Shown: one piece after another, positions 19,636 to 54,485 of the stretch | Numbering within the stretch: position 1 is the first letter of the stretch | Layout of the letters: each line of letters opens with the position of its first letter | NCBI RefSeq assembly: GCF_026427355.1 | Contig: NZ_CP102664.1 | Location: forward strand, 3,227,501 to 3,291,500 | Length of the DNA stretch: 64,000 bases | Source of the DNA: Sphingobium sp. JS3065 | Lineage (GTDB): Bacteria; Pseudomonadota; Alphaproteobacteria; Sphingomonadales; Sphingomonadaceae | Reading direction: 5' to 3' | Position numbers and translations under genes: made by a program | Notes under the pieces: generated by a model | The model's input: the letters and a program-made list of their open reading frames with translations, nothing else | Told to the model about the DNA's origin: nothing | Databases searched by the model: none

Positions 19636-19719
19636 GACTTTATGGGCTTTTCATTGACTCTTGAGAGCTGCGCTGTTAGGCGCGCCTTTCACCATTTCTC
19701 TTGGTTCAGGAGCGCCCGT

Positions 19720-20064
19720 TTGGCCCGCGTTACCGTCGAAGATTGCGTCGACAAGGTTACCAACCGTTTTGACCTCGTCCTGCTTGCCGCGCAGCGCGCC
19801 CGTGAGATTTCGGGCGGCGCCGAACTGACTCTGGACCGCGACCGCGATAAAAATCCGGTCGTCGCCCTGCGCGAGATCGCGGAGGAAACCGTCCTGCCGG
19901 ATGAGCTGCATGATTCGCTCGTCGCTTCGCTGCAGAAGGTGCAGATCGACGATGACGATACGCCGGACGAAATCGGTTCGATCGCCCAGTCGGCGGAGGC
20001 CCTGCGCCTGACCGCCGCAGCCCCGCCGCGCAACCAGAATATCGGCGGCGACTACGACGGCTGA
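19720..20064 (+). CDS. rpoZ: RNA polymerase omega subunit
   Basis: 114 residues beginning (M)[32 protein letters not shown], with [13 protein letters not shown]: the alphaproteobacterial RpoZ signature from its very first residues. The start is TTG at 19720, preceded by CAGGAG 8 bases upstream; no ATG or GTG is available in frame nearby, so a TTG start is needed to give the normal N-terminus. Omega binds the beta-prime subunit and aids core polymerase assembly. A GC-rich hairpin with a T-tract follows at 20090. Confidence 0.93.
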
Positions 20065-36366: not shown

Positions 36367-36963
36367 ATGACCGAAGCATCCAAAAGCGCGCTGATCCTGA
36401 TTGAATATGTCAACGACTGGCTCTCGCCGACCGGCGGCATCTACCCGCAGTTCCAGGACCGCGAGCAGGTTGACACCGCTATCGCCAATTCGAAGATCGC
36501 TTTGGCCGAGGCGCGCCGCCGCGGCATGCACGTGATCCACGCTTCGCTGAAGTTCGAGCCGACCTACAAGGTACTGGGCGAGGGCAAATACGGCCTGCGC
36601 GCCATGATGCGCTCCTATGGCTCGTTCCTTGGTGAACAGGCCGATTTCTTCCCCGGCTTCGAGCCGGCCGAAGGCGAGCATGTCGTGCGTGAACGCGCCG
36701 GCGGCAGCAGCGTGTTCGTCGGCACCACGCTCGACGGCTATCTGCGCAACAACGGCATCTTCGACATCTATCTGTCGGGCTTTTCGCTGCGCCAGTGCGT
36801 GGAATCCTCGATGCGCAACGCGCATGACCTCGGCTACCACACCAACGTCATCTATGACGCATCGGCGGGCTACACCCGCAAACAGCAGGACGATTTTCTG
36901 ACCGAGATCGCGCCATTCTACGCCAATGCCATCACGACCAGGGACTTCGTGGCCCAGGCGTAA
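36367..36963 (+). CDS. Isochorismatase-like cysteine hydrolase
   Basis: 198 residues of the isochorismatase/nicotinamidase fold: first strand ALILIEYVNDWLSP, nucleophile region SGFSLRQCVESSMRNAHDLGYHTNVIYDAS with Cys in the (V/L)-x-x-CVxxT-like motif, and the final ITTRDFV strand. The usual first-strand catalytic Asp (xxxD-x-QND) is Glu here (LIEYVND), a substitution known in some subgroups. Third gene of the SDR-GST operon. Followed by a strong terminator. Confidence 0.88.
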   Translation: MTEASKSALILIEYVNDWLSPTGGIYPQFQDREQVDTAIANSKIALAEARRRGMHVIHASLKFEPTYKVLGEGKYGLRAMMRSYGSFLGEQADFFPGFEPAEGEHVVRERAGGSSVFVGTTLDGYLRNNGIFDIYLSGFSLRQCVESSMRNAHDLGYHTNVIYDASAGYTRKQQDDFLTEIAPFYANAITTRDFVAQA

Positions 36964-36974
36964 GCCGCCGCGAT

Positions 36975-37005
36975 CCGTGCCCGGCGCGCCCCACGCCGGG
37001 CACGG
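36975..37005 (+). terminator. Terminator after the hydrolase gene
   Basis: CCGTGCCCGGCG (36975-36986) pairs perfectly with CGCCGGGCACGG (36994-37005) around 7 bases, followed by CCTTTACG. Confidence 0.65.
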
Positions 37006-37034
37006 CCTTTACGAGCTAATCGAGGTGACAGGCG

Positions 37035-37140
37035 ATGATCGGAATAACGGTCGAACTCACTATCACACCCGGCAGTGGCGATGACTTCGAGCGTGCCTTC
37101 GCGGTGCAGGTCGCCGCAGTGCGCGCGAATGAACCGGGTA
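37035..37140 (+). pseudogene. Antibiotic biosynthesis monooxygenase-like gene, truncated at the prophage junction
   Basis: ATG 37035 behind GAGGTG starts MIGITVELTITPGSGDDFER followed by AFAVQVAAVRANEPG, the N-terminal third of an ABM-domain (quinol monooxygenase-like) protein. At about 37138 the ABM similarity ends exactly where minus-strand integrase sequence begins, so the rest of the gene has been replaced by prophage DNA. It was probably the fourth gene of the SDR-GST-hydrolase cluster. Confidence 0.65.
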
Positions 37141-37974
37141 AGAATTGCAAGCGCCGGTGCAGACAGGGGAATGACATGTTCGCGCGACGCTTTCATGCGT
37201 GTTGCCGGTATGGTCCAGAGCTTCTCGCCCAGGTCGAATTCTTCCCATACCGCGCCTCGAACTTCGCCGGATCGCACGGCCGTGAGAATGGCAAAGCGCA
37301 GTGCAAGCCGACTAAAGGATTCTCGCTCCGTCAGTTTCACCATGAACGCGGATACCTTCGTATAAGGCATAGCCGCGAAGTGCCCATCCAGCTTGGGCTG
37401 TCGTGGAAGCCCCTTCGTGATCGCGCGCATCGGCGCTTTCTGTGTCACGATAGCCCGAAGCGTAAGCCCAATCGAGAACGGTGCCGATACGCTGCCGGAC
37501 CCGTCGCGCTGTCTCTGGCTTGGTGAGCCAGATGTCGGATAACAGGTTCCGGATCATCGGGCCGGTGATCTCATGAACCTGTAAGTCGCCGATCTGAGGA
37601 AACGCATAGGCTTCGAGCGTCTGAAGCCATTGTTTCTCATGCTTCTCGTTCCGCCATGTCTTGCTGTGGGCGGCAATCACTCTGGCGGAAGCCTGCCGGA
37701 AAGTGGGAATTCCCCGCACTTTGCGCCGTTCAAATATCGGGTCCAGGCCAAGCTCAACCCAAGTGCGGATTTCCCGAGCGCGTTCCCGGGCTGTCGCCAG
37801 CGAAACCTTGGATACACTGCCCAGACCAAAGTCGCGCCGGTTGCCATTCTTCTGCACCCGACACACCCAGCTCTTGCCGCCGCCGGGCTGAATCATAAGT
37901 AACAGGCCGTCGCCATCGCCGAGCCGCCCAAGGCGCGTTGCTGCTTTCACAGCGGTAGCGGAGAGCTTTCCCAT
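37140..37974 (-). pseudogene. Prophage tyrosine integrase, frameshifted and truncated
   Basis: From ATG 37974 the product MGKLSATAVKAATRLGRLGDGDGLLLMI ... WVCRVQKNGNRRDFGLG ... LDWAYASGYR is a P4-type integrase N-terminus and core-binding domain. Near 37440 the frame shifts: GYRDTES continues out of frame, while APMRAITKGLPRQPKLDGHFAAMPY lies in the next frame. The catalytic domain continues with FAILTAVRSGEVRGAVWEEFDL (catalytic Arg) and TRMKASREHVIPLS (Lys region), then stops at about 37140 in the monooxygenase gene. The H-x-x-R box and nucleophilic Tyr are missing, so it cannot catalyse excision. Confidence 0.85.
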
Positions 37975-38194
37975 GCCGCAAATTCTCCCACATTCTTTCC
38001 CACATTTCCAATCGATCACCGGTGGACGGGCAGGGATGCAAGTGGATACGAATCACGCTGAAAGCCGCAGAAATGCTGGGCTTTAGTGATTCGGAACGGA
38101 TGCGAAAGGACAGGTTGGTGGCGGAGCGGGAGGCAGTCGAAAAGACCGCAACAAATGGCGGAATTGCGTCGTTATCGGCGATCCTTGCGTTTCG

Positions 38195-38214
38195 ATGCCC
38201 CCAAGAATGCCCCC
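38195..38214 (+). repeat. Paired ATGCCCCC repeat upstream of the integrase
   Basis: ATGCCCCC at 38195-38202 and 38207-38214 (12-base phase), about 220 bases upstream of the integrase start. The same pair is seen on the minus strand at 7909-7928. A single inverted GGGGGCAT follows at about 38246-38253. Confidence 0.55.
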
Positions 38215-38228
38215 TCTTTAATTTGCGC

Positions 38229-38687
38229 CTACCCGTCTGTCGGAATGGGGGCATTGTCCTGATGCTGGGCGCCGAACACCTTACGCTGCTCGGCTTCATA
38301 TTCTCCATACGTGTTCCAGTTGGCGACTGGACTGCGAACCTCTCCAGTCGGGAACAGGATCGGCTCATTCCCCGGGCCACCATCATTGATGCCGTTATTG
38401 GTGATGGGGGCCATGATGCCGTCGGCGGAAAGCGCCCAGGCGATCACCGGCTCCTTCACGATCTCAAACGGAGGGTCGAAGCAGGGGCTAAGCATATAGG
38501 TGCCGCTCTGCGCAGGGATCATTTGCTGCGGCGTCCGTGCCAAAGCATCCTCCCATACCGAAAGCTCGACGGTGAACCGATCATTGTCGACCAGGTCAAC
38601 CTCAACCAGCCATTTCTCCTCGATCAGACGCTGGCGCGCCTGCTGGATGGATGAAAGCGGAACGTAACGAGCACCGAGCTTCAGCAT
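38229..38687 (-). CDS. Hypothetical prophage protein
   Basis: 152 residues, MLKLGARYVPLSSIQQARQRLIEEKWLVEVDLVDNDRFTVELSVWED ..., with a C-terminal acidic, Pro/Asn-rich tail. No family recognised. It ends the leftward early operon, 8 bases after the AlpA-like gene, before the integrase remnant. Confidence 0.65.
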   Translation of the reverse strand: MLKLGARYVPLSSIQQARQRLIEEKWLVEVDLVDNDRFTVELSVWEDALARTPQQMIPAQSGTYMLSPCFDPPFEIVKEPVIAWALSADGIMAPITNNGINDGGPGNEPILFPTGEVRSPVANWNTYGEYEAEQRKVFGAQHQDNAPIPTDG

Positions 38688-38695
38688 AGTTTCTC

Positions 38696-38923
38696 CTATT
38701 GTGGCGCGCTAATCCAATCATTGATCTGTGATTCGCGCCAGCCCACGCAATTGCGGCTGAGCTTGATTTGCTTCGGAAATGAACCGTCTGCGATCTTTCG
38801 GTACACAGTGCTCTGCTTCAAGCCAGTTCGTGACAGAACTTCAGGCAGACGGATGATGCGGTCAGCCGCAGATGCGGAACCGTGCCGCGCGGAACTGCTC
38901 ATGGTCTGTGTCGAATTACCCAT
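38696..38923 (-). CDS. AlpA-like excisionase/regulator
   Basis: 75 residues from ATG 38923, chosen because GGAGGTGA lies 5-6 bases upstream. DRIIRLPEVLSRTGLKQSTVYRKIADGSFPKQIKLSRNCVGWRESQINDWISA is a complete AlpA/MerR-like winged helix, usual for prophage excisionases and integrase activators. Its start lies inside the 3' end of the large helix-turn-helix array gene, so the two are coupled. Normally it would act with the integrase, which here is broken. Confidence 0.88.
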   Translation of the reverse strand: MGNSTQTMSSSARHGSASAADRIIRLPEVLSRTGLKQSTVYRKIADGSFPKQIKLSRNCVGWRESQINDWISAPQ

Positions 38924-40967
38924 TTCTGTCACCTCCGATCTGGATTTCATCAATGATGTCGCCTGCAGTTCCGTCGCCGATCACGTCTGCGAGGTTCCTA
39001 TCTGTGCTGCCGACAGTCCCATCGAGAGAGCGCGGGCCGAACATGCTTGCCCAGCGAGTGAATGCCCTGCTTGTGAAGGTGCGCGCGGCTGGCCTCAGCT
39101 TCGCCATCTCCAGCCGTCCTTCGAGGATGGCGAGACAGAGCTCGGCCACAACCTCGTCCCTGATCGACGGATCAATCGAGCGGCTGACAGCGGCCTGAAC
39201 CTCGCTGATGATCAAAGCATGAGGATCATCCTTCGAAGCGCGGCGATGAGCCAATGCCGCCCGGCGCGTGGCCTTGTCGTCGGCCGACAACTGTCCCCTG
39301 ATACGGAAAACGGTGGCGGCGGGCGCGCCCGTGATCAGCTTAATTTGGTCGGCGCCCTCTCCATTCACCAAGAGAGCCCGGACCCGCTCACTCAGGCCTG
39401 TGTCCACCGGCTTGGGACCTCGCCTGCGCGCGCCACGCTCCCAGGTGGCAGAGCATGTTCCGGCATGCCCCTTCAGCCGTCCGCACTCGCACGCGTCTCC
39501 ACGCTGGGCGATGCGCGAGCGGGCTATAACCGCATGCCTGAGCACCGTATCGGCGTTGATGCTGCACTCCCGCGAAATGTCGCTCACGGTCAGGCCTTCC
39601 ATAAGCATCTGCTCAATCCTCCTGGTCCATCGCTTGCCAAGAGACCCTGGAGTGTTCTTGATGCATCCACCGGCGTGGCCGATGGGCTTCCCGCAGACGC
39701 AGGAATGCACTGGGCCGCCGCCCCGCCCGCGCCAATGAGCGGTAATCCGCTTTGCTGTGCCGCTCGACACGCCAGCCTTCTTTGCGATGCTGGAAGTCGA
39801 ATAGCCTAACGAGAACATCCTGCGCATTCGCCGCAGCGTCGGCTGGGGCAGGGTGGATGTGACATCATTCCACGCTCCTCGCTGAATGGTCTTCTTTGCC
39901 TGCCGTGCCCGCCGCGCTGCGCAGGGGCCTGCATGCCCGGCTTGTCGGCCGCACGGACAGTCGGCGAACCGCTCCCCAGAGGCCAGCGCTTTGCGGGCGA
40001 TGGTGGCAGTAATATCCCTGGAAAGCTCGAGCATGCGGGCCACAGTCCGGACGCCGTGACCGACCCGGAGCAGCTTCAGCACCTGCTTTTCAAGCTTGGC
40101 CTTCCCGCCTGCCTCCGAGCTCCGGAATATCTCTCGCGCTGTTCTGATGGCGGTCAGAGGCGACAAGTTCAGCTGGCGACCTGCTTCACGGGCACTGCAT
40201 CCCCGTTGGAGCAGTTCGCTCATCGCGGTGATAGTCTTCTCTCGAAACTCAGGGCGAAGCCTCATCTCGCACGGCCCCTCATGCCCTGCCGGTAGCCCGC
40301 ACGAGCAAAGCAGGCCCTCTTCGATCATGGCAGCGCGAACAGTAGACAGCCTCGACCGGAGCGCGGCCAAACTGCAGCCTAAGCTCCGCGACATCTCAGA
40401 CGCTTGCTTGCCAGCAAGGATGAGGGATCTGATCGCCTTCTCCGACGCTGGTGAGCAAGCACCAGGATGGCCATTTCGCTTGCCGCAGTCGCAAGGTGGG
40501 CGCGACGCAACAGCGGCCGCCTGCGCTCTCAGCTCATCCTGAGCATGCCTCCTGATTGTAGCCTCACTGAGGCCAAGCGCTCGAGCAATCTGCCTGGCGC
40601 TTTCGCCGAGGGCCGCCCGGCGCTTGATCTCGGAAGCTTCCGGTGCGGTGACATTGATCTGGCGGGTAGAGAGCGGCATCAGCCTGTTCAGCACCCACTG
40701 AACATATTGGACCTTTCGGCCAATAGCTTCGGCAATTTCCCGGGGCTGCTCGCCGGCCGCGGTGCGTGCCGTGATGTCTGCCCAGACGCGCTTACGGCGC
40801 TCGGTGCTGGTCGGTATGCCAGTTGCCTTGGAAATCTTGCGGCACAGCTTTGCAGCGGCGCTGTCCTTTATCCCGACGGCGCGCGCAATCGCGTTCGACC
40901 CTTCTCCGGCGGCCATCCTTCGCGCAACCTCGCGCAAGAGGGCGTCGCCATAGGTCGGCAGGTTCAT
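38916..40967 (-). CDS. Giant array protein: about nine HTH units, five Cys/His knuckles, sigma-like C-terminus
   Basis: 683 residues from ATG 40967 (GGAGG upstream, ATGA overlap with the preceding gene). Helix-turn-helix units of the form x-A-G-x5-I-A-x3-G-x4-T-(V/A)-x3 lie at about residues 9-45, 62-97, 112-146, 176-212, 243-280, 292-328, 377-412, 447-482 and 525-560. Five knuckles obey C-x-C-G-x3-G-H-x-G-x-C exactly: 159-171, 221-233, 337-349, 423-435, 493-505. Residues 598-665 (RDEVVAELCLAILEG ... SRAFTRW ... RSLDGTVGSTDRNLADVIGD) resemble sigma-70-type region 2 with its linker. It probably binds an extended repeated DNA target and may touch RNA polymerase (inference). Family not known to me. 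Confidence 0.85.
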   Translation of the reverse strand: MNLPTYGDALLREVARRMAAGEGSNAIARAVGIKDSAAAKLCRKISKATGIPTSTERRKRVWADITARTAAGEQPREIAEAIGRKVQYVQWVLNRLMPLSTRQINVTAPEASEIKRRAALGESARQIARALGLSEATIRRHAQDELRAQAAAVASRPPCDCGKRNGHPGACSPASEKAIRSLILAGKQASEMSRSLGCSLAALRSRLSTVRAAMIEEGLLCSCGLPAGHEGPCEMRLRPEFREKTITAMSELLQRGCSAREAGRQLNLSPLTAIRTAREIFRSSEAGGKAKLEKQVLKLLRVGHGVRTVARMLELSRDITATIARKALASGERFADCPCGRQAGHAGPCAARRARQAKKTIQRGAWNDVTSTLPQPTLRRMRRMFSLGYSTSSIAKKAGVSSGTAKRITAHWRGRGGGPVHSCVCGKPIGHAGGCIKNTPGSLGKRWTRRIEQMLMEGLTVSDISRECSINADTVLRHAVIARSRIAQRGDACECGRLKGHAGTCSATWERGARRRGPKPVDTGLSERVRALLVNGEGADQIKLITGAPAATVFRIRGQLSADDKATRRAALAHRRASKDDPHALIISEVQAAVSRSIDPSIRDEVVAELCLAILEGRLEMAKLRPAARTFTSRAFTRWASMFGPRSLDGTVGSTDRNLADVIGDGTAGDIIDEIQIGGDRNG

Positions 40968-41107
40968 GACTTTTTGCCTCCAGCGGCAATCTTTGCAGGC
41001 CCATGCTGCACCTTGACGCCAGCGCCGCCGCAAGGATGGCACTGCCAGATATTGGGAAACACGCCGATGTTTCCGGACCCGCGGCAGACCACGCAGAGAT
41101 TGCTCAT
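40964..41107 (-). CDS. 47-residue zinc-finger peptide (DnaJ-type CxxCxGxG)
   Basis: ATG 41107 overlaps the stop of the upstream gene, and its TGA overlaps the ATG of the array protein (ATGA). The product begins MSNLCVVCRGSGNIGVF and carries CVVCRGSG and CHPCGGAG, two CxxCxGxG motifs 14 residues apart, as in one DnaJ zinc module. The basic C-terminus is KIAAGGKKS. Such mini zinc-finger proteins are common in phage early regions. Likely a nucleic-acid or protein adaptor for the array protein it is coupled to (inference). Confidence 0.75.
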   Translation of the reverse strand: MSNLCVVCRGSGNIGVFPNIWQCHPCGGAGVKVQHGPAKIAAGGKKS

Positions 41108-41460
41108 CGGCTCGCCCGTTTAACGCTCGGTGCATTCGGATCCGCGGCCGGCGTTTGATCCCAGTTTGCGCTGATCGCCGCCACCGGGCCCGCTTCGGCA
41201 GACCGCATCAACAGTTGTCCGCGATCGCCGGACAACTGCTCAATTCCTTTTTCGCCGACGGCTGGACCTGACTTCGTGCCGACGCGAGCGATCTCCTGCA
41301 GGACCAGGAAGGTGCTACCCGGCCGTCGCATACTCTGAGCAGCCGCATCCTCGATTGCATCATCAGCAGAAGAGTGCCGAAAGCGCGGGAGCTTGCCGCC
41401 GCTGTTGCGGCATACGATGAAAGCGTAGCTCTCGCGCTTCTTGATGATCGTCTCGCTCAT
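41104..41460 (-). CDS. Hypothetical prophage early protein
   Basis: 118 residues, MSETIIKKRESYAFIVCRNSGGKLPRFRHSSADDAIEDAAAQSMRRPGSTFLVLQEIARV, then a Gly/Ala-rich tail. No family recognised. The first 65 residues look like a compact alpha/beta fold. Start and stop overlap neighbours by ATGA, showing tight coupling in the leftward operon. Confidence 0.65.
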   Translation of the reverse strand: MSETIIKKRESYAFIVCRNSGGKLPRFRHSSADDAIEDAAAQSMRRPGSTFLVLQEIARVGTKSGPAVGEKGIEQLSGDRGQLLMRSAEAGPVAAISANWDQTPAADPNAPSVKRASR

Positions 41461-41855
41461 TCCGCCAGCGCCTCACCAAGAGCATTGCAAAGGACCGCCT
41501 CAGCGTCAGCCATCAGCGCGGCCACGGCGTGCTCGTTGACGGTGAGCGCCCGTCCGAAACCCTGGCCGATCGCGTTCGCTCCCAGGATCATGGCATGGGC
41601 ACTCCGAGCCGCCTGCATGAGATCGCGGAGCCGGGACAGCGCGCTGCCCTCCGTAAGGTCGGGTATACCGGTGCATTTCAGGAATTCGCGCCAACGATCC
41701 GTGATGTCGAGCGCCGCTGATACGCGATCCTCAGCCGACATCTTCGGATCGGCGCATGCGATGGTGTGAGTGGCTATGGCATCTATGTAGCGGTTATAGG
41801 CCGCCTGCGCTTCCGCGCTCGTGCCTTCCAGTTTTACGGTGGTCATGACTGTCAT
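41457..41855 (-). CDS. Hypothetical prophage early protein
   Basis: 132 residues, mostly helical (SAEAQAAYNRYIDAIATHTIACADPKMSAEDRVSAALDITDRWREFL and AVAALMADAEAVLCNALGEALAE). ATG 41855, or Met5 at 41843. Its stop overlaps the next gene (ATGA). No family recognised. Confidence 0.65.
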   Translation of the reverse strand: MTVMTTVKLEGTSAEAQAAYNRYIDAIATHTIACADPKMSAEDRVSAALDITDRWREFLKCTGIPDLTEGSALSRLRDLMQAARSAHAMILGANAIGQGFGRALTVNEHAVAALMADAEAVLCNALGEALAE

Positions 41856-41865
41856 GTCGCAATCC

Positions 41866-42201
41866 TCAAGCTACGCGCGAGCGGTTGGTGGGGAAAAGCT
41901 GGTGGACCGTGCCTTCGGCTGGTGACGGCTGGCGTTCACCGTCGTCTGGGTCATCCGGATCATCGTCGTCGTCAGGAAGGTGGGCGTGAGGCGACGGCTG
42001 AAAATCAGCGCAGGACCTGCTGTGATGTGTGATAGCCTGGAGAGCGACCCATTCGCCCTCGATCTCTCTCATGGTCAGGGGTTCCATCTCGCAGGCGCCG
42101 ACGTCTGACGTGTCGATCGCAGAAGCAGGTTTCCTCATGTCCGCCGGTGCCCCTTGGCGCCAATGACGGCAGTTGTTGCAGGTCTGGAAGAACTTGATCA
42201 T
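41866..42201 (-). CDS. Hypothetical protein with N-terminal Cys cluster
   Basis: 111 residues beginning MIKFFQTCNNCRHWRQ, with further Cys in GACEME and SCADF. This C-x2-C-x2-HW ... C ... C pattern is typical of small phage zinc-binding proteins. The C-terminus is strongly acidic (DDDDDPDDPDDG). ATG 42201 overlaps the stop of the preceding gene. Function unknown. Confidence 0.65.
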   Translation of the reverse strand: MIKFFQTCNNCRHWRQGAPADMRKPASAIDTSDVGACEMEPLTMREIEGEWVALQAITHHSRSCADFQPSPHAHLPDDDDDPDDPDDGERQPSPAEGTVHQLFPTNRSRVA

Positions 42202-42620
42202 TGCGGCAGAACCAGAGCTGCGGGATCGTAGCCGTTTTCGGCGAGAAGGCGCTTTGCTTCGCCGCTCAGCCCTTCTTGTTGGTCGTTGAGATCGCGACCG
42301 TTAGCGAAGCAGATGAGATACTTTATCGCGAAAGCCGAAAGGTCAGGCGAAGGAGTGTTCAGGAGCTGGCCTTCGGCCTGGTACCGAGCGTCGGCAAGCC
42401 GGTCCATCTCGTCATCGAAAGGGGTGACCGGGCAAAGATCACCCGAGGTGCTCTTCGCATTCTGGTATGCTGGAAACCAAGAGCGCTGATGGAACGTCCG
42501 CTCGGCCGCCAATGTTTTTTCATATCGCCAGCGGGCGAAAAGCCACCTCACCTTCACCAGGAACAGCGAGCCAGCGCCGTGCTCAGTGGCTCCGTAAAGC
42601 GGGGCATCTGACATGATCAT
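42198..42620 (-). CDS. Hypothetical prophage early protein
   Basis: 140 residues from ATG 42620. The start is chosen because the junction sequence GAGGGCTGCTGAG-ATG is identical to that before the next gene upstream (42903) and gives a GAGGG ribosome-binding site overlapping the previous gene's Glu-Gly-Cys-stop. The product is MIMSDAPLYGATEHGAGSLFLVKVRWLFARWRYEKTLAAERTFH ..., with C-terminal helices. No family recognised. Confidence 0.6.
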   Translation of the reverse strand: MIMSDAPLYGATEHGAGSLFLVKVRWLFARWRYEKTLAAERTFHQRSWFPAYQNAKSTSGDLCPVTPFDDEMDRLADARYQAEGQLLNTPSPDLSAFAIKYLICFANGRDLNDQQEGLSGEAKRLLAENGYDPAALVLPQ

Positions 42621-42917
42621 CTCAGCAGCCCTCCGCGGCGATAGTCGCACTTGATGCGGCTGGATCCCGTGGGAGAAGCTCGGAAAGGTCGATCAGGTTC
42701 TGGACCGCCTCAAGCGTATCAGCATGAACCCGCGGCGAAAGCAGCGCGAAATCTGTCTTGACCCCGCCTGGCGAGCCAAAGTCCTGTACTAGGCACTCGG
42801 CATGCCAAGAGGCCGACATCATCCTGAGTATGGCCCGCGCATAGTGGAGCGGCCCATCAGCATACTCGCCGAAAGCGAGAGCCGGGTTGCGCGTATTGCT
42901 CATCTCAGCAGCCCTCC
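42617..42917. repeat. 18-bp direct repeat at two gene junctions
   Basis: TCATCTCAGCAGCCCTCC occurs at 42617-42634 and again at 42900-42917. Both copies encode the same Glu-Gly-Cys-stop gene end, ribosome-binding site and overlapping ATG of the next gene, suggesting a duplicated translational-coupling module. Confidence 0.7.
42622..42903 (-). CDS. Hypothetical prophage early protein
   Basis: 93 residues from ATG 42903: MSNTRNPALAFGEYADGPLHYARAILRMMSASWHAECLVQDFG ..., ending AAEGC. The C-terminal part (ADTLEAVQNLIDLSELLP) is helical. No family recognised. Coupled to both neighbours through the repeated EGC-stop/ATG junction. Confidence 0.6.
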   Translation of the reverse strand: MSNTRNPALAFGEYADGPLHYARAILRMMSASWHAECLVQDFGSPGGVKTDFALLSPRVHADTLEAVQNLIDLSELLPRDPAASSATIAAEGC

Positions 42918-43411
42918 ATGTCAGCACGGCGGGCGTCGGTAATCATGATGTCGCGGCGAATAGACCGAGCGAGGTCGGGATAGAGTGTGGCCACGCTGTC
43001 AACCGCTTGCGGGGATCGCCGAGCGAGGGTGGCGCTGATGGTTGTCAGCGCCTGCGCAATGCCTTCGCACAACTTGCGCCCGCTTTTGTCGTGCTTTGCC
43101 ACCATGTCGGGCAGCTGGTCCGCCAGAGACGCAGTGAACCCTGCCAAGATCATAAGGTCCTGCCCATCATCTTCAGGGATGAGGTCAAACATGGCAGCAT
43201 TGCTATTCGACAGCAGATCCAGCGCTGCATCCTGAAGGATGCGAAAAGCTGGCCATTTGCGCGTGCTTGCCAGGATGTCCGCGTCGGTGAAAATGGCATC
43301 CACCCTGCCGAACAGGGCTGCCATGGTCATCATGGAAGAGCCGGCATCTGCCGGGCGCAGTTCTTCGTTCCGCGAAGCGTCATCGCTCCGCGCCTTGGTG
43401 GCGTTGGCCAT
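42905..43411 (-). CDS. Hypothetical prophage early protein, first of the leftward operon
   Basis: 168 residues from ATG 43411 (GGAG 8 bases upstream; the frame extends to TTG 43432). Helical, with ILQDAALDLLSNSNAAMFDLIPEDDGQDLMILAGFTASLADQLP and a C-terminal IRRDIMITDARRADMEGC. No family recognised. The candidate promoter with an operator in its spacer lies at 43527-43555. Confidence 0.6.
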   Translation of the reverse strand: MANATKARSDDASRNEELRPADAGSSMMTMAALFGRVDAIFTDADILASTRKWPAFRILQDAALDLLSNSNAAMFDLIPEDDGQDLMILAGFTASLADQLPDMVAKHDKSGRKLCEGIAQALTTISATLARRSPQAVDSVATLYPDLARSIRRDIMITDARRADMEGC

Positions 43412-43526
43412 ATCGGGGTCTCCTGTGCTCAATAACAGGATCGGCCGGGGCTATTACATCGTCATGCCGCGACTATTCCTGCCTGCTTCACCGTCTTCGG
43501 CCCGGAGGCGATCAGGTGATGAGGCA

Positions 43527-43555
43527 GAGATAGTGCGGTATAATTACCGCGTCAA
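43527..43555 (-). promoter_or_regulatory. Candidate leftward early promoter with embedded CI operator O1
   Basis: On the minus strand, TTGACG (43555-43550) and TATCTC (43532-43527) are separated by 17 bases, and the spacer is filled by the perfect 16-bp operator GCGGTATAATTACCGC at 43535-43550. Repressor binding there would block the leftward operon. Confidence 0.6.
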
Positions 43556-43563
43556 CATCTATT

Positions 43564-43579
43564 AAGGAATATTTACCGC
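43564..43579. promoter_or_regulatory. Candidate CI operator O2 (one good half-site)
   Basis: AAGGAATATTTACCGC: the right half TTTACCGC matches the operators at 43535 and 44355-44428; the left half is degenerate. It lies just past the repressor stop codon, upstream of the leftward promoter. Confidence 0.45.
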
Positions 43580-43580
43580 A

Positions 43581-44354
43581 CTAGCCCCCGAGCATTTCCG
43601 CAGTTGGGACAATGCGGTGGATTTCCCGCACCCTGTGAGCCGCGATGCTCAAGGTTTCCCGTGGTTCGAACAGCTCGATAGTCACCTCATCCCGCGTGCG
43701 ATCAAGCAGGCGGCCGATGATCGCAGGCTTCACCGGATCATCTTGCATGTTCTCCCATATGTAGTGGCGATAAACCACGACATAGTCTCGCACGGCGGCA
43801 GGTCGAGCGGGGTCGACGATTACAAGATCCCCGATATCATAACGGGGCGCCAAGGCGGATACCGTAGCGTAGAAACCGTAAATCATCTTCCGGTTCGAAA
43901 GGCCAGCTGGAAGGGGCAGGATTGACGAGATGAAGACACGAGGCATGTTGAAATAAGGCATGTCGTCGCGGGCATCTACAGCACTGCGCTTATCTGCCGG
44001 AACGTCGTCAGCCTGATAGATACTGATACCATCGACGGTGTCGACCGGACGAATTGTGTACTCATTGGATTTCTCGTCGGGAGGAAAAACGCCGATCCGA
44101 CGGTCTTTGGCTTTCGTGAAGACCTCAGCTAACGGCGAAGGATCGTCGGTTGCGCCTAATAAATAGCTCGGCGTGGTCATCAGAACGCGCGCGATCGCTT
44201 CCAGGCGCTCCGCTGAAGGCATCGACCGCCCACTCAGGATGAAGCGGATGGCATCCGGCTTGCCAGTTGCTTCCATTGATGCCTTACGCGCGGTGATGGG
44301 AAGCACGTCGAGCATCTTCTGGATGCGTTCCCGCAGTATTTCGCTGGTGTCCAT
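43581..44354 (-). CDS. CI-type phage repressor (HTH plus S24 peptidase-like domain)
   Basis: 257 residues from ATG 44354 (MDTSEILRERIQKMLDVLPITARKASMEATGKPDAIRFILSGRSMPSAERLEAIARVLMT). The N-terminus is a helix-turn-helix of the lambda-repressor type; the C-terminal half (MIYGFYATVSALAPRYDIGDLVIVDPARPAAVRDYVVVYRH) is the S24/LexA-like dimerisation domain. The normal catalytic Ser position reads SALAPRY, so a Ser (in TVSAL) is present but the motif is atypical. Divergent from the Cro-like gene, with operators on both sides of the gene. Maintains lysogeny. Confidence 0.88.
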   Translation of the reverse strand: MDTSEILRERIQKMLDVLPITARKASMEATGKPDAIRFILSGRSMPSAERLEAIARVLMTTPSYLLGATDDPSPLAEVFTKAKDRRIGVFPPDEKSNEYTIRPVDTVDGISIYQADDVPADKRSAVDARDDMPYFNMPRVFISSILPLPAGLSNRKMIYGFYATVSALAPRYDIGDLVIVDPARPAAVRDYVVVYRHYIWENMQDDPVKPAIIGRLLDRTRDEVTIELFEPRETLSIAAHRVREIHRIVPTAEMLGG

Positions 44355-44428
44355 GCGGGATATGTACCGCATAGAAGTTAAGAAATCATGCGGTAAATAT
44401 CCCGTTGTTTGTGCGGGACATATACCGT
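44355..44428. promoter_or_regulatory. Three CI/Cro operators between repressor and cro-like gene
   Basis: GCGGGATATGTACCGC (44355-44370), GCGGTAAATATCCCGT (44390-44405) and GCGGGACATATACCGT (44413-44428): three 16-bp near-palindromes of consensus GCGG(G/T)A-N4-TACCG(C/T) or its inverse. They are the same motif as O1 at 43535. The first abuts the repressor ATG and the third fills the spacer of the rightward promoter. Confidence 0.75.
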
Positions 44429-44433
44429 ATTGA
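44405..44433 (+). promoter_or_regulatory. Candidate rightward early promoter
   Basis: TTGTTT (44405-44410), 17-base spacer containing the third operator, TATTGA (44428-44433). Predicted transcription start falls at about 44440, which is the ATG of the Cro-like gene, so the mRNA would be leaderless. Confidence 0.5.
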
Positions 44434-44439
44434 TGCGGC

Positions 44440-44751
44440 ATGAGCACATTCGAACAGTCATTGCTGGCCGTATCACGCATTTACGTGCGTGCTGTGGCAG
44501 CCCGAGGAGGCAAGTCGCTGGCGCGGGTTGCAACCATCGTAGTCAATCATGGGTCTTTCTTTGATCGCCTTGAGCGGGGAGCGACATGCACCGTCCGCAA
44601 CCTGGACAAGTTCGCAGCCTACTTCAGCGACGCTGCGAACTGGCCGGAAGGCGTGGTTCCTGATGACGCTGCCGACGTCCTCGCTGGCATTGGCCGCCCG
44701 GTGAAGGCGGGGCAGCCGCTGAGTGAAGCATTCGGCTCTACCTCCGTTTGA
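44440..44751 (+). CDS. Cro-like DNA-binding protein
   Basis: 103 residues: MSTFEQSLLAVSRIYVRAVAARGGKSLARVATIVVNHGSFFDRLERGATCTVRNLDKFAAYFSDAANWP. LARVATIVVNHGSFFDRLERG matches the layout of small phage HTH proteins that read the same operators as the repressor. First gene of the rightward operon, ATG at 44440 with no ribosome-binding site (see leaderless prediction). Its stop lies 12 bases before the helicase start. Confidence 0.75.
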   Translation: MSTFEQSLLAVSRIYVRAVAARGGKSLARVATIVVNHGSFFDRLERGATCTVRNLDKFAAYFSDAANWPEGVVPDDAADVLAGIGRPVKAGQPLSEAFGSTSV

Positions 44752-44762
44752 AGGCGTTGCCG

Positions 44763-46172
44763 ATGACGCCCAATCTCCCATCAACGGCCGATGAGGAGGC
44801 CGCAATCCTTGCTGCGATCATGATGATCGAGGGGGGATATGATAGAGTGGCGGCCAAGCTTCGGCCGCATCATTTTTCCGAGCCCCTGTTCGGCCGTATG
44901 TTTGAGGAAATGGGCGCGCTCGCAGACGCTGGGGAAGCAATAAACGTCTTCACCATGTCTCGAGCCATGGCAGGCGAACCATCGTTCGAGGACCTTGGTG
45001 GTCACCGTTATTGGATCCAGCTAGCGAACCAGCCGTACGTAATGGCTGCACTCGGCTTTGCCGACGACCTGATTAGCCAGTCACGCCGCCGCTTGCTGCT
45101 ACAGTCGCTCCAGGCAGCGAGCTCGTCCGCCTCGGATCTGTCCGTTGATCTGAATGACACGATGGAGATGGTGGAGCAGGGCTTGGCAGACGCCATGCCG
45201 GCAGAGTTCGGACGGCGCACCCGCCGCCTCGGTGACGCCTATGGCGACGCCATTGAGCGGATTGAGGCCATTCGCCGCGGTGATGTTGATCCGGGACTCA
45301 AGGTCTACGGCTGGTCGGACTGGAACGATCTCACTGGGGGCATGCGTCCTGGTGACTATGTCCTGATCGGCGGCCGTCCTAGCATGGGCAAGACCGCGCT
45401 CTCGCTCGGCTTGGCCCGCCGGGCGGCACAGGCCGGAAAGGGTGTGCTCTACATCAGTCGTGAAATGGAAACGCCTGCGCTGATGGAGCGCATGGTTGCA
45501 GACCTCCTGTTCGAGCAGGGCGGGCGGGCTGGAATGTCCGACGTCAAGGCGGGCAATGTGGATGATGCTGACCTTCAACGCCTTTGGCGCGCTAAGCGGG
45601 AAGTAGACGGCTGGCCGCTCGTCATCGATGACCCAGAGCACTTGGGCCTGGGGCAAATCGGTCCACTGATCCGCCGTCATCGGCAGGCGTTCCAGCGGCG
45701 CGGTGAGGAACTCGCCATGGTCATCATCGACTATCTCGGCCTGATCGACCCACCGCAGAAGGGCAACCGCGAGCAGGAAGTTTCTGCGATCAGTCGGACG
45801 ATCAAGAGCATCGCCAAGGCCCAGGGTATCCCGATCGTCGTGCTTTCGCAGCTGAGCCGGGCTGTTGAGCAAAGGGAGGATAAGCGACCTCAGCTCTCCG
45901 ATCTGCGCGACAGCGGCTCGCTCGAACAGGACGCCGACATCATCGTGTTTGTCTATCGCGACGAATACTACCTGCAGCGCGCTGAGCCTGACCCTTCCGA
46001 CGCGCAGAAGCGGAGCCAATGGGAGCTGGATATGCAGGCCGCGCGCGATCGCGTCGAGATATACACGGCGAAGAACCGGAATGGCGAGCTAACGCGGCGG
46101 AAAGGTTATTTCTTCGGCGCCCGCCAAGCAATCCGCAATTCTGATTTCTACAGGAGTGGGCACGATGGCTGA
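44763..46172 (+). CDS. DnaB-like replicative helicase of the prophage
   Basis: 469 residues from ATG 44763 (AAGGCG upstream). The N-terminal DnaB domain has ADEEAAILAAIMMIEGGYDRVAAKLRPHHFSEPLFGRMFEEM; the C-terminal RecA-like ATPase has Walker A GGRPSMGKTALSLGLA, REMETPALMERM, Walker B MVIIDYLGLI, QLSRAVEQREDKRPQLSDLRDSGSLEQDADIIVFVYRDEYY and a C-terminal KNRNGELTRRKGYFFG. This is full DnaB organisation with all ATPase motifs. It would unwind phage DNA during replication with the two following gene products. Confidence 0.93.
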   Translation: MTPNLPSTADEEAAILAAIMMIEGGYDRVAAKLRPHHFSEPLFGRMFEEMGALADAGEAINVFTMSRAMAGEPSFEDLGGHRYWIQLANQPYVMAALGFADDLISQSRRRLLLQSLQAASSSASDLSVDLNDTMEMVEQGLADAMPAEFGRRTRRLGDAYGDAIERIEAIRRGDVDPGLKVYGWSDWNDLTGGMRPGDYVLIGGRPSMGKTALSLGLARRAAQAGKGVLYISREMETPALMERMVADLLFEQGGRAGMSDVKAGNVDDADLQRLWRAKREVDGWPLVIDDPEHLGLGQIGPLIRRHRQAFQRRGEELAMVIIDYLGLIDPPQKGNREQEVSAISRTIKSIAKAQGIPIVVLSQLSRAVEQREDKRPQLSDLRDSGSLEQDADIIVFVYRDEYYLQRAEPDPSDAQKRSQWELDMQAARDRVEIYTAKNRNGELTRRKGYFFGARQAIRNSDFYRSGHDG

Positions 46173-46989
46173 GTTCCCAGCGCTGCCCATCTGGACCGAT
46201 GCATACCTGGCTGACACGCGGCACCTGTCCACGCTGGAACATGGCGCATACTTCCTTCTGATGATGGAGGCGTGGCGACGCCCGACATGTTCGCTGCCCG
46301 ACGACGACGCAATGCTGGCCCGGCTGGCCGGCCTTGATGCTGCTGATTGGGCGGCCGTGAAGCCCGTGATCATGTCCCTCTGGAAGCTCGACCGTCGCAG
46401 CAAAACTTGGACACAAAAACGGCTTTCGAAAGAGAAGCAGTATGTTCGGAAGAAGAGCAAGTCCCAGAAGGAAAAAGCAGCAAAGCGTTGGAATAAAGCC
46501 AAAAAAGCCGATGCCGTGGCATTGCCGGACGAATGCCCCGAGCATGCCCCCACACCCACACCCACACCCACAGTTATTATAGAGGAACCTATCGGTTCCT
46601 CTCGTCCGCCAGCCCCTGATCACGTTTCGGAGGCCTTCGGCGCATACGAGGCCATGCGGCGCGAGATCGTCCACGGCGCCCGCCCGCTGCAACTGGGGGC
46701 AGACCGCCGCAAGAAACTAGCTCTTCGGTTGGGTGAGATCGGGGGACTTCGCCAGTGGGACGACGTCCTCAGCGCTGTCCGGCGCTCCCCGTTCCTCCGT
46801 GGGGAGAAATCCCGCAGCGGCCTGGTCGCGACAATCGACTGGCTGCTCGAACCCAAAAACCTGCGCAAAGTGATGGAAGGAAATTACGATGAGCCAGCTG
46901 CAACATGCTCAGGTGGGAGGCTCGCTGTTCGAAACAGCCCCATCGATGCCCTCAGTTTCGCAATCTCTGCTTCAGGCCTTGACCGATAG
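46165..46989 (+). CDS. DUF1376-type (YdaU-like) replication-region protein
   Basis: 274 residues from ATG 46165 (GGAG upstream), overlapping the helicase by 8 bases. FPALPIWTDAYLADTRHLSTLEHGAYFLLMMEAWRRPTCSLPDDDAMLARLAG is the DUF1376 fold found in lambdoid-type prophage replication modules. It is followed by a Lys-rich segment, an ATT-free PTPTPTPT linker encoded by a 6-base tandem repeat, and a C-terminal domain (DVLSAVRRSPFLRGEKSRSGLVATIDWLLEPKNLRKVMEGNYDE) typical of replication initiator proteins. Probably the origin-binding or helicase-recruiting component. Confidence 0.85.
   Translation: MAEFPALPIWTDAYLADTRHLSTLEHGAYFLLMMEAWRRPTCSLPDDDAMLARLAGLDAADWAAVKPVIMSLWKLDRRSKTWTQKRLSKEKQYVRKKSKSQKEKAAKRWNKAKKADAVALPDECPEHAPTPTPTPTVIIEEPIGSSRPPAPDHVSEAFGAYEAMRREIVHGARPLQLGADRRKKLALRLGEIGGLRQWDDVLSAVRRSPFLRGEKSRSGLVATIDWLLEPKNLRKVMEGNYDEPAATCSGGRLAVRNSPIDALSFAISASGLDR
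46549..46572 (+). repeat. Tandem hexanucleotide tract (CACCCA)
   Basis: About four copies of CACCCA/CCCACA in the linker of the DUF1376-type gene, encoding alternating Pro-Thr. Length change by slippage would keep the reading frame. Confidence 0.75.
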
Positions 46990-47485: not shown

Positions 47486-47652
47486 GGAGGAGGAGGCCAG
47501 CGCCAGCCGATATCGTCGCCTCACTCGCGGCCGTGAAGCTGCTGATCAAAGGCATGAACGGCGCAATGCCGACGCTTCAGCGCGAAATCCAACGCGATGC
47601 CTGTGAGCGCATCGATGACATCATCAGTGACCTAGGGAGCATTCTGCGGTGA
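47482..47652 (+). CDS. Hypothetical 56-residue protein
   Basis: GTG 47482 overlaps the stop of the previous gene (GTGA), and its TGA overlaps the GTG of the next (GTGA). Product starts with four Arg (VRRRRPAPADIVASLAAVKL) and contains EIQRDACERIDDIISDLGSILR, an amphipathic helix. No family recognised; support comes from the double overlap in the operon. Confidence 0.6.
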   Translation: MRRRRPAPADIVASLAAVKLLIKGMNGAMPTLQREIQRDACERIDDIISDLGSILR

Positions 47653-48545
47653 AAAATCGCAATCGTCGACGAGCAGCTGCGGCTGGAAAGGCTGAGCAGA
47701 AAAAGAAGGCTGCGGCACCGGGCATCGAGGCTCCGACGGAAGAGCTTCAGCATCGCGTCAACTTCTCCGTTCGCCAGGTCACGACAGAGGCAGGGCAGGT
47801 GCTCGGGTTGGCCTATCGCAGGACGCCGTTGATCGAGACAATGGCAGCGCGAAACATGATCAGCGCGGAAGAGCTGGCTGTGCTGCGTTTCTATCGCACC
47901 GCATTTGATCGGTGCGAACGGTCGCCGGTGAAGTGCGCGCTCAACATATCCGGTGTTAGCTCGAGCAGCCCCGCCCATGCGCTTTTCCATGCAACGCCGT
48001 CTATGCTGGACGCAAAGAAGCGACTGAGGATTTGCGAGAACAGCTTCGGCAAGGAATTGGAGACGATGCGCGGCGTAGTGCTCGCCGACAAGTCCTTCAG
48101 TGACCTTGCGATTGAGCGGTTCGGGTCGCGCATTGTGAAGCCAGCCAGGCACATGGACAGGGCTGCTCGCCAGCGCGGCGAACATCAGGAGAGGATCCTG
48201 CCCAAGTCCGGCCGCCATCGGGAAATCGTTCGGCAAGAGTTTCTTTCGGGGCTTCGTAGTTTGGCTGAGACAGTACGTGGCATGGTGGCGCGCAGCGCGA
48301 TCGAGGAGATATGGGTACAGCCGCTCCAGGATGGAAAGGCGCGCATCCGCCGCGGATCGATTGCACCACAGGGCACCTATTGGTGTTGGGGCGATCCCGA
48401 ATTGGTGGACATGATCATGGGCGAACTGCATCGGCTTCACGGAGATGATCTCATGTTCTCCTCTGCGGCTGGCGCTATCGACGCGCTCAAGTCGGCCGAG
48501 AAGGATCGACTTAAAAGCTTGGAAGCTGAAGAACTCGCGGCTTAG
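47649..48545 (+). CDS. Hypothetical prophage protein
   Basis: 298 residues from GTG 47649. Basic, Lys/Arg-rich N-terminus (KNRNRRRAAAAGKAEQKKKA), then RVNFSVRQVTTEAGQVLGLAYRRTPLIETMAARNMISAEELAVLRFYRTAFDRCERSPVKCALN. Further helical regions follow (LSGLRSLAETVRGMVARSAIEEIWVQ). A conserved phage gene type in the slot between replication and packaging modules, where late regulators often sit; I cannot name the family. A hairpin terminator follows about 90 bases downstream. Confidence 0.7.
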   Translation: MKNRNRRRAAAAGKAEQKKKAAAPGIEAPTEELQHRVNFSVRQVTTEAGQVLGLAYRRTPLIETMAARNMISAEELAVLRFYRTAFDRCERSPVKCALNISGVSSSSPAHALFHATPSMLDAKKRLRICENSFGKELETMRGVVLADKSFSDLAIERFGSRIVKPARHMDRAARQRGEHQERILPKSGRHREIVRQEFLSGLRSLAETVRGMVARSAIEEIWVQPLQDGKARIRRGSIAPQGTYWCWGDPELVDMIMGELHRLHGDDLMFSSAAGAIDALKSAEKDRLKSLEAEELAA

Positions 48546-52365: not shown

Positions 52366-53628
52366 ATGATCCGACTTGGAGAATTGATGATGATCCTCGA
52401 ATTACATCGGCAGGGCGTATCGATATCCGCCATTGCCCGACGCACTGGTCGCGATCCCAAGACCATCCGAAAATATATCGAACGGGGTGTCGAGGCCCCG
52501 GTTTACGGCCCACGCATGCTGGGTCGACCGAACAAACTGGCACCCTATCTAGAATTTTTGCGTGAGCGAGTGGTGGCCTTTCCCGATCTGACGGCGGCGC
52601 GTCTGACGCGGGAAATCCGTGAGCTGGGGTATATGGGCGCCTATACTGCGGTAAAGCGGTTCCTGGCAGCGATTCGACCGGAAAACGGCCCCAAGCCCTT
52701 CGAGGTTCGGTTCGAGACGCCGCCTGGCGTGCAGGCACAGGTCGACTTTGCCCGGTTCGTCGTCGAATTTACCGATGAGCCCGGCGTCAGCCGGATCGTC
52801 TGGCTATTCAGCTTGGTGCTGGGACATTCGCGCTTCCTGTTTGCACGCTACGTCATGCACCAGGATCTCCAAACTCTGTTGCGCTGTCATATGCAGGCCT
52901 TTGAAGCGCTCGGTGGCGTCCCGATCGAAATCCTCTACGATCGCATGAAAACCGCCGTAACCGGCGAAGATGATCAGGGCCATATCATCTACAATCGATC
53001 ATTGCTGGCCCTGGCGGGGCATTACCGCTTCGTGCCACGCGCCTGCCGTCCCTATCGGGCCAAGACCAAGGGAAAGGTCGAGCGGCCGTTCAGCTATATC
53101 CGCAAGGACTTCTTCCTGGGCCGCAGCTTCCGCAATCTGGACGATCTCAATGTCCAGCTAATCGACTGGCTCGATACCGTCGCCAATGTCCGTGTCCACG
53201 GGACGACGCAGCGGATTATTGTTGAAGCCTTCGCCGCCGAGCAGCCTGAGTTGCAGCTGCTCCCGGCGGGTCGCTTTGACGCCGTTCTGAAGCTGGAGCG
53301 CCGCGTCAGCCATGATGGGATGGTCTCTGTCGGCGGCAATTACTACAGCGTTCCCGATCGCACTCGGCGCGTCGTCGAAATCCAGCAGTTGCCTGACAAG
53401 ATCAGGATCGTAGACCTGGGCCAGGTCATTGCCGAGCACCCGGTTCTTGAGGGGCGTCGGCAGTGTAGGATCGATCCTGCGCATCGGACAGGCGGCAGCG
53501 GCGCCAAGCGCCGTATCCATGGCAAAGAGGTAATCGCCATCGGTCGTATAGGCGAGCATGTCGCTGTGCGCTCCCTGGCCATCTATCAGGCGATCGGCAG
53601 CCAACTGGCGCGGGGAGAACGGCCATGA
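52366..53628 (+). CDS. istA: IS21 transposase IstA
   Basis: 420 residues. N-terminal helix-turn-helix GELMMILELHRQGVSISAIARRTGRDPKTIRKYIERG; DDE catalytic core with VQAQVDFARFVVEF (Asp), EILYDRMKTAV (Asp) and the KGKVERPFSYIRKDFFLGR segment (Glu); C-terminal VGGNYYSVPDRTRRVVEI. Length and order are those of IstA. The last 4 bases overlap istB. Confidence 0.95.
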   Translation: MIRLGELMMILELHRQGVSISAIARRTGRDPKTIRKYIERGVEAPVYGPRMLGRPNKLAPYLEFLRERVVAFPDLTAARLTREIRELGYMGAYTAVKRFLAAIRPENGPKPFEVRFETPPGVQAQVDFARFVVEFTDEPGVSRIVWLFSLVLGHSRFLFARYVMHQDLQTLLRCHMQAFEALGGVPIEILYDRMKTAVTGEDDQGHIIYNRSLLALAGHYRFVPRACRPYRAKTKGKVERPFSYIRKDFFLGRSFRNLDDLNVQLIDWLDTVANVRVHGTTQRIIVEAFAAEQPELQLLPAGRFDAVLKLERRVSHDGMVSVGGNYYSVPDRTRRVVEIQQLPDKIRIVDLGQVIAEHPVLEGRRQCRIDPAHRTGGSGAKRRIHGKEVIAIGRIGEHVAVRSLAIYQAIGSQLARGERP

Positions 53629-54485
53629 ACCAAGGGGGTGCCGCATCCCGCGTCGATAATATCCGCCGCAGCCTGGTCCATCTCAAAATGCCACGCGCTC
53701 TGGAGATGCTCGACGCCACCCTGCGCGGCATAGAGCAGGGCAAAATCGATGGCATCGAGGCCATCGACATATTGCTGAACGAAGAACTATCGCTCCGGGA
53801 GAACCGCAGGATCAAGGCGGCCCTGCGCATGGCAAGGCTGCCGATCATCAAGACGCTGGACGGATATGACTTCTCCTTCCAGCCATCGCTCGACCGGAAC
53901 CGCATCCTGGCGCTCGCTGGCCTGGACTTCATCAACCGGGCCGAGGTGGTGCATCTGTTGGGTCCGCCCGGTACCGGAAAAAGCCATATCGCCACTGCTC
54001 TTGCAGTCGAGGCCGTGAAGGCGGGCAAGAGCGTCTACTTCATCCCGCTCGCCGATCTGATCGCTTCACTGACCAAGGCGGAACGGGAGGGCACGCTGCG
54101 CGAAAGGATCCGCTTCCTATGCCGATCCGCGCTGCTCGTCGTAGACGAGATCGGGTATCTCCCTGTTACGCCGGGCGGTGGCAACCTGTTCTTCCAACTC
54201 GTCAATGCCCGATACGAAAAGGGCGCTATGATCCTGACATCCAACCGCGGCTTTGCCGAATGGGGTGATGTCTTTGGCGATCCGGTGGTGGCCACCGCGC
54301 TGCTCGACCGCCTCCTTCACCACGCGGTGGTCATCCAGATCGAGGGCTCCAGCTATCGCATGCGACAGCACGCTGACCTGCTGCCCGAGCATGCGCGCAT
54401 GGCACCGTCCATCAACCCGCCGCCCTTGCCCAAACGGCGTGGCCGCCCGCCAGCAAAGGAAAATCCCGATCTCCATCACGGCTGA
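53625..54485 (+). CDS. istB: IS21 helper ATPase IstB
   Basis: 286 residues. AAA+ ATPase with Walker A LLGPPGTGKSHIATALAVEA, Walker B LLVVDEIGYLPV and sensor region LTSNRGFAEWGDVFGDPVVATALLDRLLHHAVVIQIEGSSYR; the usual N-terminal IstB helices (LEMLDATLRGIEQGKIDGIEAIDILLNEEL). It loads IstA on target DNA and controls target choice. Intact; the C-terminal NPPPLPKRRGRPPA tail is slightly longer than typical. Confidence 0.95.
   Translation: MNQGGAASRVDNIRRSLVHLKMPRALEMLDATLRGIEQGKIDGIEAIDILLNEELSLRENRRIKAALRMARLPIIKTLDGYDFSFQPSLDRNRILALAGLDFINRAEVVHLLGPPGTGKSHIATALAVEAVKAGKSVYFIPLADLIASLTKAEREGTLRERIRFLCRSALLVVDEIGYLPVTPGGGNLFFQLVNARYEKGAMILTSNRGFAEWGDVFGDPVVATALLDRLLHHAVVIQIEGSSYRMRQHADLLPEHARMAPSINPPPLPKRRGRPPAKENPDLHHG

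Follow-up and report, generated by a model that had tools for sequence, protein, structure and literature searches.

The locus described here raises the question of what kind of regulator is formed when an array of putative DNA-binding units precedes a tail that resembles parts of a bacterial sigma factor. It lies in a prophage within a stretch of 64,000 nucleotides of Sphingobium sp. JS3065 (contig NZ_CP102664.1, positions 3,227,501 to 3,291,500; the window, whose own numbering is used throughout), and the gene in question codes for a 683-amino acid protein with nine helix-turn-helix (HTH) units, five Cys/His knuckles and the tail. The reading frame had been reported, with no strand given, in an earlier inspection of the nucleotide sequence (the original prediction). 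It is intact and located on the minus strand, with its ATG at 40967 and its TAA at 38918-38916, and the plus-strand frame over the same interval has 4 stops. The comparisons described below indicated that the tail very probably derives from, or imitates, sigma factor parts. We propose that the protein is a phage-encoded sigma-like transcription factor that lacks region 4 and uses the tail to direct the host RNA polymerase, a reading to which we assign an even chance after lowering our confidence because an alternative identity of the tail helices, sigma region 3, was taken into account. No description of such a protein was found in the literature, judging by titles and abstract openings, mostly outside subscription journals.

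The sigma-like tail

The first approximately 68 positions of the tail are helical, and the remainder is a conserved segment around the pattern SLD......D..L.D.I.D, which was modeled with low confidence. The S, L and D of the SLD motif are kept in 66, 63 and 66 of 69 rows, respectively. Profile searches of the C-terminal segment, which the original prediction had suggested as a check, placed sigma factors first among the PDB sequences each time (best E values of 0.0015, 0.00049 and 0.00025 with 8, 20 and 30 tails, respectively). In the 30-tail search 19 of the 26 rows, including the first 11, were sigma factors, and the other seven were mucin-1 and an endosomal protein. The alignments cover sigma region 3.2 (the sigma finger); those obtained with 20 and 30 tails extend back into the end of region 3. 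When the organism's own genome was searched, the next place after the array gene was RpoD, at the same segment (E 0.28).

The tail was also cut in two, once the earlier results were known, and ten hhalign comparisons were made in which the RpoD pieces were single sequences and the extracytoplasmic function (ECF) sigma sets had 13 rows. The finger segment matched region 3.2 of the host RpoD (24.1 over 25 columns, P 1.5e-5, 0/60 shuffles) and none of the other four sigma pieces. The helices matched ECF region 2 (22.5 over 14 columns, a score reached by 0/60 shuffles), with no match to RpoD region 3 or ECF region 4. The uncut tail scored above its shuffles against ECF sigmas in hhalign, and sigma region 2 was among the rows of a fold comparison of the tail. 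At the sequence level, these results firmly identify the RSLDG...LADVIGD segment as sigma region 3.2-like, and the helices are best read as region 2, with region 3 as the alternative. The sigma likeness of the tail as a whole is supported by the profile comparisons and less strongly by the fold; the likeness to region 2 in the original prediction would apply to the helices, the RSLDG...LADVIGD segment being 3.2-like. Helix 2 carries an acidic pair, four residues apart, at the position of the ECF 'D..QE' (66/69 and 57/69 rows). This pair and the finger segment are what a polymerase-docking module needs. Residues that would read a -10 element were not clear by eye, and no region 4 lies behind the tail, as the protein ends 14 residues past the 3.2-like segment as bounded here.

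A number of observations weigh against the reading proposed above. The six PDB rows below E 0.001 were all SigA, five of them nearly equal in score, and the other sigma rows had E values of at least 0.05. The alignments of the 20- and 30-tail searches run from tail helix 3 across the end of SigA region 3 into region 3.2. The strong 3.2 match arose after the tail was cut and was one of ten comparisons, in which region 3 was represented by a single sequence and ECF region 2 by 13. The uncut tail was not above shuffles in hhalign when compared with three RpoD-like sequences (17.9 vs 18.7, 16.0 vs 19.5 and 14.7 vs 16.4). No sigma Pfam model appeared at E 5 in 7 sequences, two of them window pieces; the window tail had no Pfam match at this threshold. 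Sigma70_r3 was touched by 4 of 30 tails (best 0.11) and Sigma70_r2 by only 1 (0.09), none over the cut-off, a difference that, albeit below significance, makes the region 3 alternative weightier. Foldseek found nothing below E 0.001 for the tail model, the best match being sigma-E (E 2.1), and in the fold comparison an unrelated top row (6.4) scored similar Z values, as did TFIIB and MLLE domains. Furthermore, an excerpt of PMC7948647 describes region 4 as essential in one sigma70 initiation assay, and the repeat and promoter scans detailed in the next section found no promoter or operator. Other family collections gave little for the tail: the best NCBIfam E value on 30 tails was 0.02, with no family common to more than 2 of the 30, and PHROGs returned for the tail pieces a weak phrog_24127 alone (function unknown, best E 0.0085). 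Since the protein fails formal sigma membership (region 4, Pfam cut-offs) and the likeness of its working parts stands, it was classed as a sigma-like phage regulator.

The predicted DNA-binding array

An AlphaFold2 model of the full-length protein, built from a 4-row alignment, included nine three-helix units (Table 1), and several Pfam HTH families were above their cut-offs. The approximately nine HTH units of the original prediction were thus recovered, and the structure prediction that it had named as a check gave HTH-like three-helix folds. With a mean pLDDT (predicted local distance difference test) of 64 and a pTM (predicted template modeling score) of 0.24, the succession of units is usable but the overall shape of the protein is not; ten-residue pLDDT means within the units range from approximately 55 to 86. 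Single units resemble solved HTH domains such as those of DeoR, NarL and Tn3 resolvase in fold comparisons. Sigma70_r4_2 matched the upstream units (34 bits, cut-off 25.7) as one among many HTH models that do so, and TnsD (PF15978) was below its cut-off (22.1 vs 32.4 bits), with its best stretch at residues 443-479. A Foldseek comparison of the full-length model with the PDB gave no match below E 0.001, the best being SelB winged helices (E 0.017).

The five C-x-C-G-x3-G-H-x-G-x-C knuckles were confirmed as exact copies with identical CCHC spacing (5/5), and 0/2000 composition shuffles held even one exact knuckle. Because of this spacing they probably bind zinc. The knuckle stretches are mostly of low confidence in the model.

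The nine HTH units are mutually dissimilar, with pair scores of 15-59 vs 213-255 for each unit against itself. Provided that all units bind, the target would be a composite rather than a repeated DNA site. The array had been described as repeat-reading, a notion that these differences do not support. Likewise, none of the 20 of 44 direct-repeat families listed for positions 36800-46500 stood out as an array target, nor did any of the 25 of 60 inverted-repeat families listed. A promoter scan was near shuffle level (4 found vs a mean of 2.5, standard deviation 1.4).

Table 1. Features of the array gene and its immediate neighbors (window coordinates).
Feature	Position	Strand	Basis or remark
HTH-array/sigma-like protein gene	38916..40967	-	Intact open reading frame, 683 amino acids; 4 relatives 27-42% identical in alignment A2
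HTH unit 1, residues 7-49	40821..40949	-	AlphaFold, three helices
HTH unit 2, residues 54-96	40680..40808	-	AlphaFold; fold rows to DeoR and NarL-type HTHs
HTH unit 3, residues 108-154	40506..40646	-	Best stretch of Pfam GerE, HTH_7, Sigma70_r4_2; AlphaFold
CCHC knuckle 1, residues 159-171	40455..40493	-	Exact motif; zinc inferred
HTH unit 4, residues 173-216	40320..40451	-	AlphaFold
CCHC knuckle 2, residues 221-233	40269..40307	-	Exact motif
HTH unit 5, residues 239-283	40119..40253	-	AlphaFold
HTH unit 6, residues 287-329	39981..40109	-	AlphaFold; fold rows to DeoR and Tn3 resolvase
CCHC knuckle 3, residues 337-349	39921..39959	-	Exact motif
HTH unit 7, residues 375-414	39726..39845	-	AlphaFold
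CCHC knuckle 4, residues 423-435	39663..39701	-	Exact motif; C, C, H, C invariant in 5-row alignment
HTH unit 8, residues 441-488	39504..39647	-	AlphaFold; unit-to-unit comparison
CCHC knuckle 5, residues 493-505	39453..39491	-	Exact motif; C, C, H, C invariant in 5-row alignment
HTH unit 9, residues 523-558	39294..39401	-	AlphaFold
Three-helix domain, most like sigma region 2, residues 582-643	39039..39224	-	AlphaFold; sigma region 2 fold rows; hhalign to ECF region 2
Sigma region 3.2-like segment, residues 645-669 (RSLDG...LADVIGD)	38961..39035	-	PDB profile searches; hhalign to host RpoD region 3.2
47-amino acid Cys-rich gene	40964..41107	-	Upstream, overlaps array gene as ATGA
AlpA-like gene	38696..38923	-	PF05930 E 1.4e-19; start overlaps array gene stop as ATGGGTAA

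Relatives and their distribution

Of 7996 candidates scored in a whole-protein search, three proteins were retrieved: P0002, P0003 and the window's own. The first two have 494 and 493 amino acids and are approximately 40% identical over half of the query. Among phage records, the single match (tblastn) was MT835519.1, an unverified metagenome record encoding a 745-amino acid relative of the same layout, 27% identical over 97%, with six knuckles of looser pattern; four other queries gave none, and two queries against plasmid records gave no match. A 458-codon frame in locus L055 is also similar to the array protein, and Foldseek on viral models returned one 274-amino acid protein, A0A6B9SWJ1 (E 2.2e-3, 29% identity). 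By best local match, P0003 is co-linear with the array protein in units 1-3, in units 7 and 8, in knuckle 4 and in the tail, and the phage relative in units 7 and 8, knuckle 4 and the tail; no co-linear partner was seen for units 4-6 by this measure. The middle of the array therefore seems to be replaceable.

The tail alone is more widespread than the whole protein. A tail-profile search found 49 proteins among 3866 candidates, 33 of them with a precomputed HTH-type Pfam domain, and the tail is present in 56 of the 58 proteins collected (P0001-P0007, of which P0001 is the window's own, and P0010-P0058). P0008, which has an HTH array, was excluded from this set, as the tail profile finds nothing in it. 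Of the tail-bearing proteins, 8 have at most 130 amino acids (three of these, of 70-83, are possibly fragments), 41 have 131-240, 4 have 241-360 and 3 are longer. The tail is at or near the C terminus in each member seen and the part that precedes it is variable, the HTH counts of relatives being estimates from length and by eye. L031 and L004, which are one element, clearly show a standalone tail, a 108-amino acid gene that is overlapped by an upstream gene of another kind; L002 is similar in look, and P0017 and P0023 have 99 amino acids. In L020 (3514-5859) and L015 the stretch upstream of the tail is open too and ABC transporter-like by eye (781 amino acids), a frame that is possibly a fusion by insertion.

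The named sources of the tail proteins are sphingomonads (Qipengyuania, Sphingomonas, Tsuneonella and Sphingopyxis). In thin genome samples, the whole protein matched in 3/298 genomes of its own family, its own included, and the tail in 10/397 genomes of the family, in 5/396 of the order (all five of the same family) and in 1/385 of the class, the one being its own. Scans of viral contigs located three loci (L031, L057 and L058), and the one genome contig scan a single locus (L010).

Possible mechanism and alternatives

In the mechanism that we propose, the C-terminal tail would bind the core RNA polymerase of the host, with the beta-prime clamp helices as the most likely docking site, and the 3.2-like segment would extend into the path of the active site and RNA exit. 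An extended DNA site would be bound by the nine HTH units, of which some are joined via the probable zinc knuckles, and the array would choose where the polymerase is placed, replacing the reading of the -35 element by region 4. The factor would probably switch a few phage promoters, given the location of its gene between those of a repressor and an integrase. A DNA-binding array tethered to a sigma-like domain had been predicted as a possible transcription switch; the anatomy holds, and from it we infer a role in transcription, by activation rather than repression. Excerpts of PMC7892883 assign to sigma region 2 the holding of the beta-prime clamp helices and the reading of the -10 element, and to region 4 the flap and the -35 element. 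A broader formulation is somewhat doubtful: a class of sigma-like factors in which the promoter choice of region 4 is replaced by a knuckle-stiffened N-terminal HTH array of none to nine or more units, which would read a long site. If the tail docks on the polymerase, the family would be a natural experiment in which a modular array took the place of a sigma factor's promoter reader, and relatives whose arrays differ greatly in length would be available for comparison. It would test how much of a sigma factor (region 2 and finger) suffices for initiation when the choice of DNA is delegated, and it would define a family of phage regulators by a tail with no clear Pfam or NCBIfam match.

The protein shares features with several known systems. 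T4 gp55, a phage late sigma factor with a region 2 homology domain, relies on acidic residues of a single helix for the clamp; it carries a helix-loop-helix and a sliding-clamp-binding tail where the array protein carries HTH units, and no row for it appeared when the PDB was searched with profiles of 8, 20 or 30 tails. As in ECF (group IV) sigma factors, helices most like ECF region 2 are directly followed by a linker-like segment, but there is no C-terminal region 4, the nine HTH units are N-terminal and the window tail has no sigma Pfam match. The finger segment resembles that of primary sigma factors (PDB profile E 2.5e-4 to SigA); unlike in these, no separate region 3 domain was recognized between helices and finger, the region 3 alternative for the helices notwithstanding. 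In Bacillus subtilis, SigO-RsoA divides sigma functions between two small proteins. In contrast to this split sigma (named in an excerpt of PMC10141391), the window tail is fused to an HTH/knuckle array. The GafA and GafY-GafZ activators of gene transfer agents are also alphaproteobacterial and phage-derived and combine DNA-binding units with polymerase contact (excerpts of PMC9638019 and PMC11150451), a contact that would be shared here; unlike them, the array protein has no DUF6456 and no sequence relation was found. Identity with GafA or GafZ was rejected, as DUF6456 was not among the Pfam matches of 30 tails at E 5 and the host DUF6456 protein was unmatched by the 69-row tail profile.

It appears unlikely that the sigma mimicry serves to block the polymerase, with the tail occupying the clamp helices or the RNA path to exclude the host sigma factor and the array holding the protein near chosen sites, as a repressor or in host shut-off. 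An HTH-type domain, as found in most proteins of the tail search, would be needless for a plain competitor, and the conservation of the S and D of the SLD motif also argues against it. The lack of a region 4 behind the tail and of clear -10-reading residues is consistent with blocking, as are the standalone tails of L031, P0017 and P0023, which have no DNA reader of their own. An antiterminator or elongation factor like GafZ or phage Q, binding DNA near a promoter, loading on the polymerase and traveling along with it, is also improbable considering the missing sequence relation to GafZ and the DUF6456 results. In its favor, a phage-like cluster of Caulobacter includes a DNA-binding antiterminator, GafZ (excerpt of PMC11150451), and a 3.2-like segment would be positioned close to where the RNA exits (excerpt of PMC7948647).

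A low probability was likewise given to a site-recognition factor for recombination or replication, whose array would bind DNA of an att site or an origin next to AlpA and integrase and whose sigma likeness would be a distant relic or chance. The HTH units do resemble those of transposases and resolvases. An AlpA gene follows in the window and directly, with an ATGA overlap, in L006, abuts or overlaps in L021 and is approximately 0.9 kb off in L023/L031. Integrase genes are near in the window, L021, L022 (same strand) and L023/L031 (opposite strand there). Two loci speak against a fixed place of the tail gene: in L024 it is approximately 2 kb from a primase gene and the 16 kb retrieved gave no integrase match, and in L057 it is near a DNA methyltransferase gene, approximately 4 kb from a major head gene. 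Site recognition also offers no explanation for the constancy of the sigma-like tail.

Genomic context

The window prophage contains DnaB, terminase, portal and head genes. The array gene belongs to a leftward run from a repressor-like gene (43581-44480; HTH_3 below its cut-off) to AlpA and integrase, and a repressor gene also heads the run in L022. The 'early operon' of the original prediction is better named as the leftward operon that lies between the repressor-like gene and the integrase gene. The coupling of the array gene to the upstream Cys gene and the downstream AlpA gene was borne out by the two overlaps in Table 1. The 47-amino acid Cys protein has a likeness to DnaJ CXXCXGXG that is below the cut-off (16.6 vs 32.7 bits).

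Other genes of these loci were also noted. The small Cys-containing protein encoded at 41866-42201 belongs to a family with further members close to the tail gene in L021, L022 and L023/L031. At 47649-48542 the window encodes a 298-amino acid protein with no Pfam or PHROG match; a relative adjoins the tail gene in L024, and another is found in L006 (approximately 40% identical). L006 also encodes, at 18556-19803, a 415-amino acid protein of repeated Myb/GcrA-like units (GcrA PF07750, 27.6 bits, cut-off 26.9), located immediately before, and overlapping, the phage relative of the array gene, so that a second DNA-reader array is found beside the first. The tyrosine integrase of the window prophage (36918-38019, minus strand) looks broken: it consists of two overlapping frames, and the match of the second to a 458-amino acid relative stops at position 329. 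Positions 52366-54482, between the genes for the large terminase and the major head protein, encode a transposase and a DnaC-like helper, a pair that we read as being of the IS21 type.
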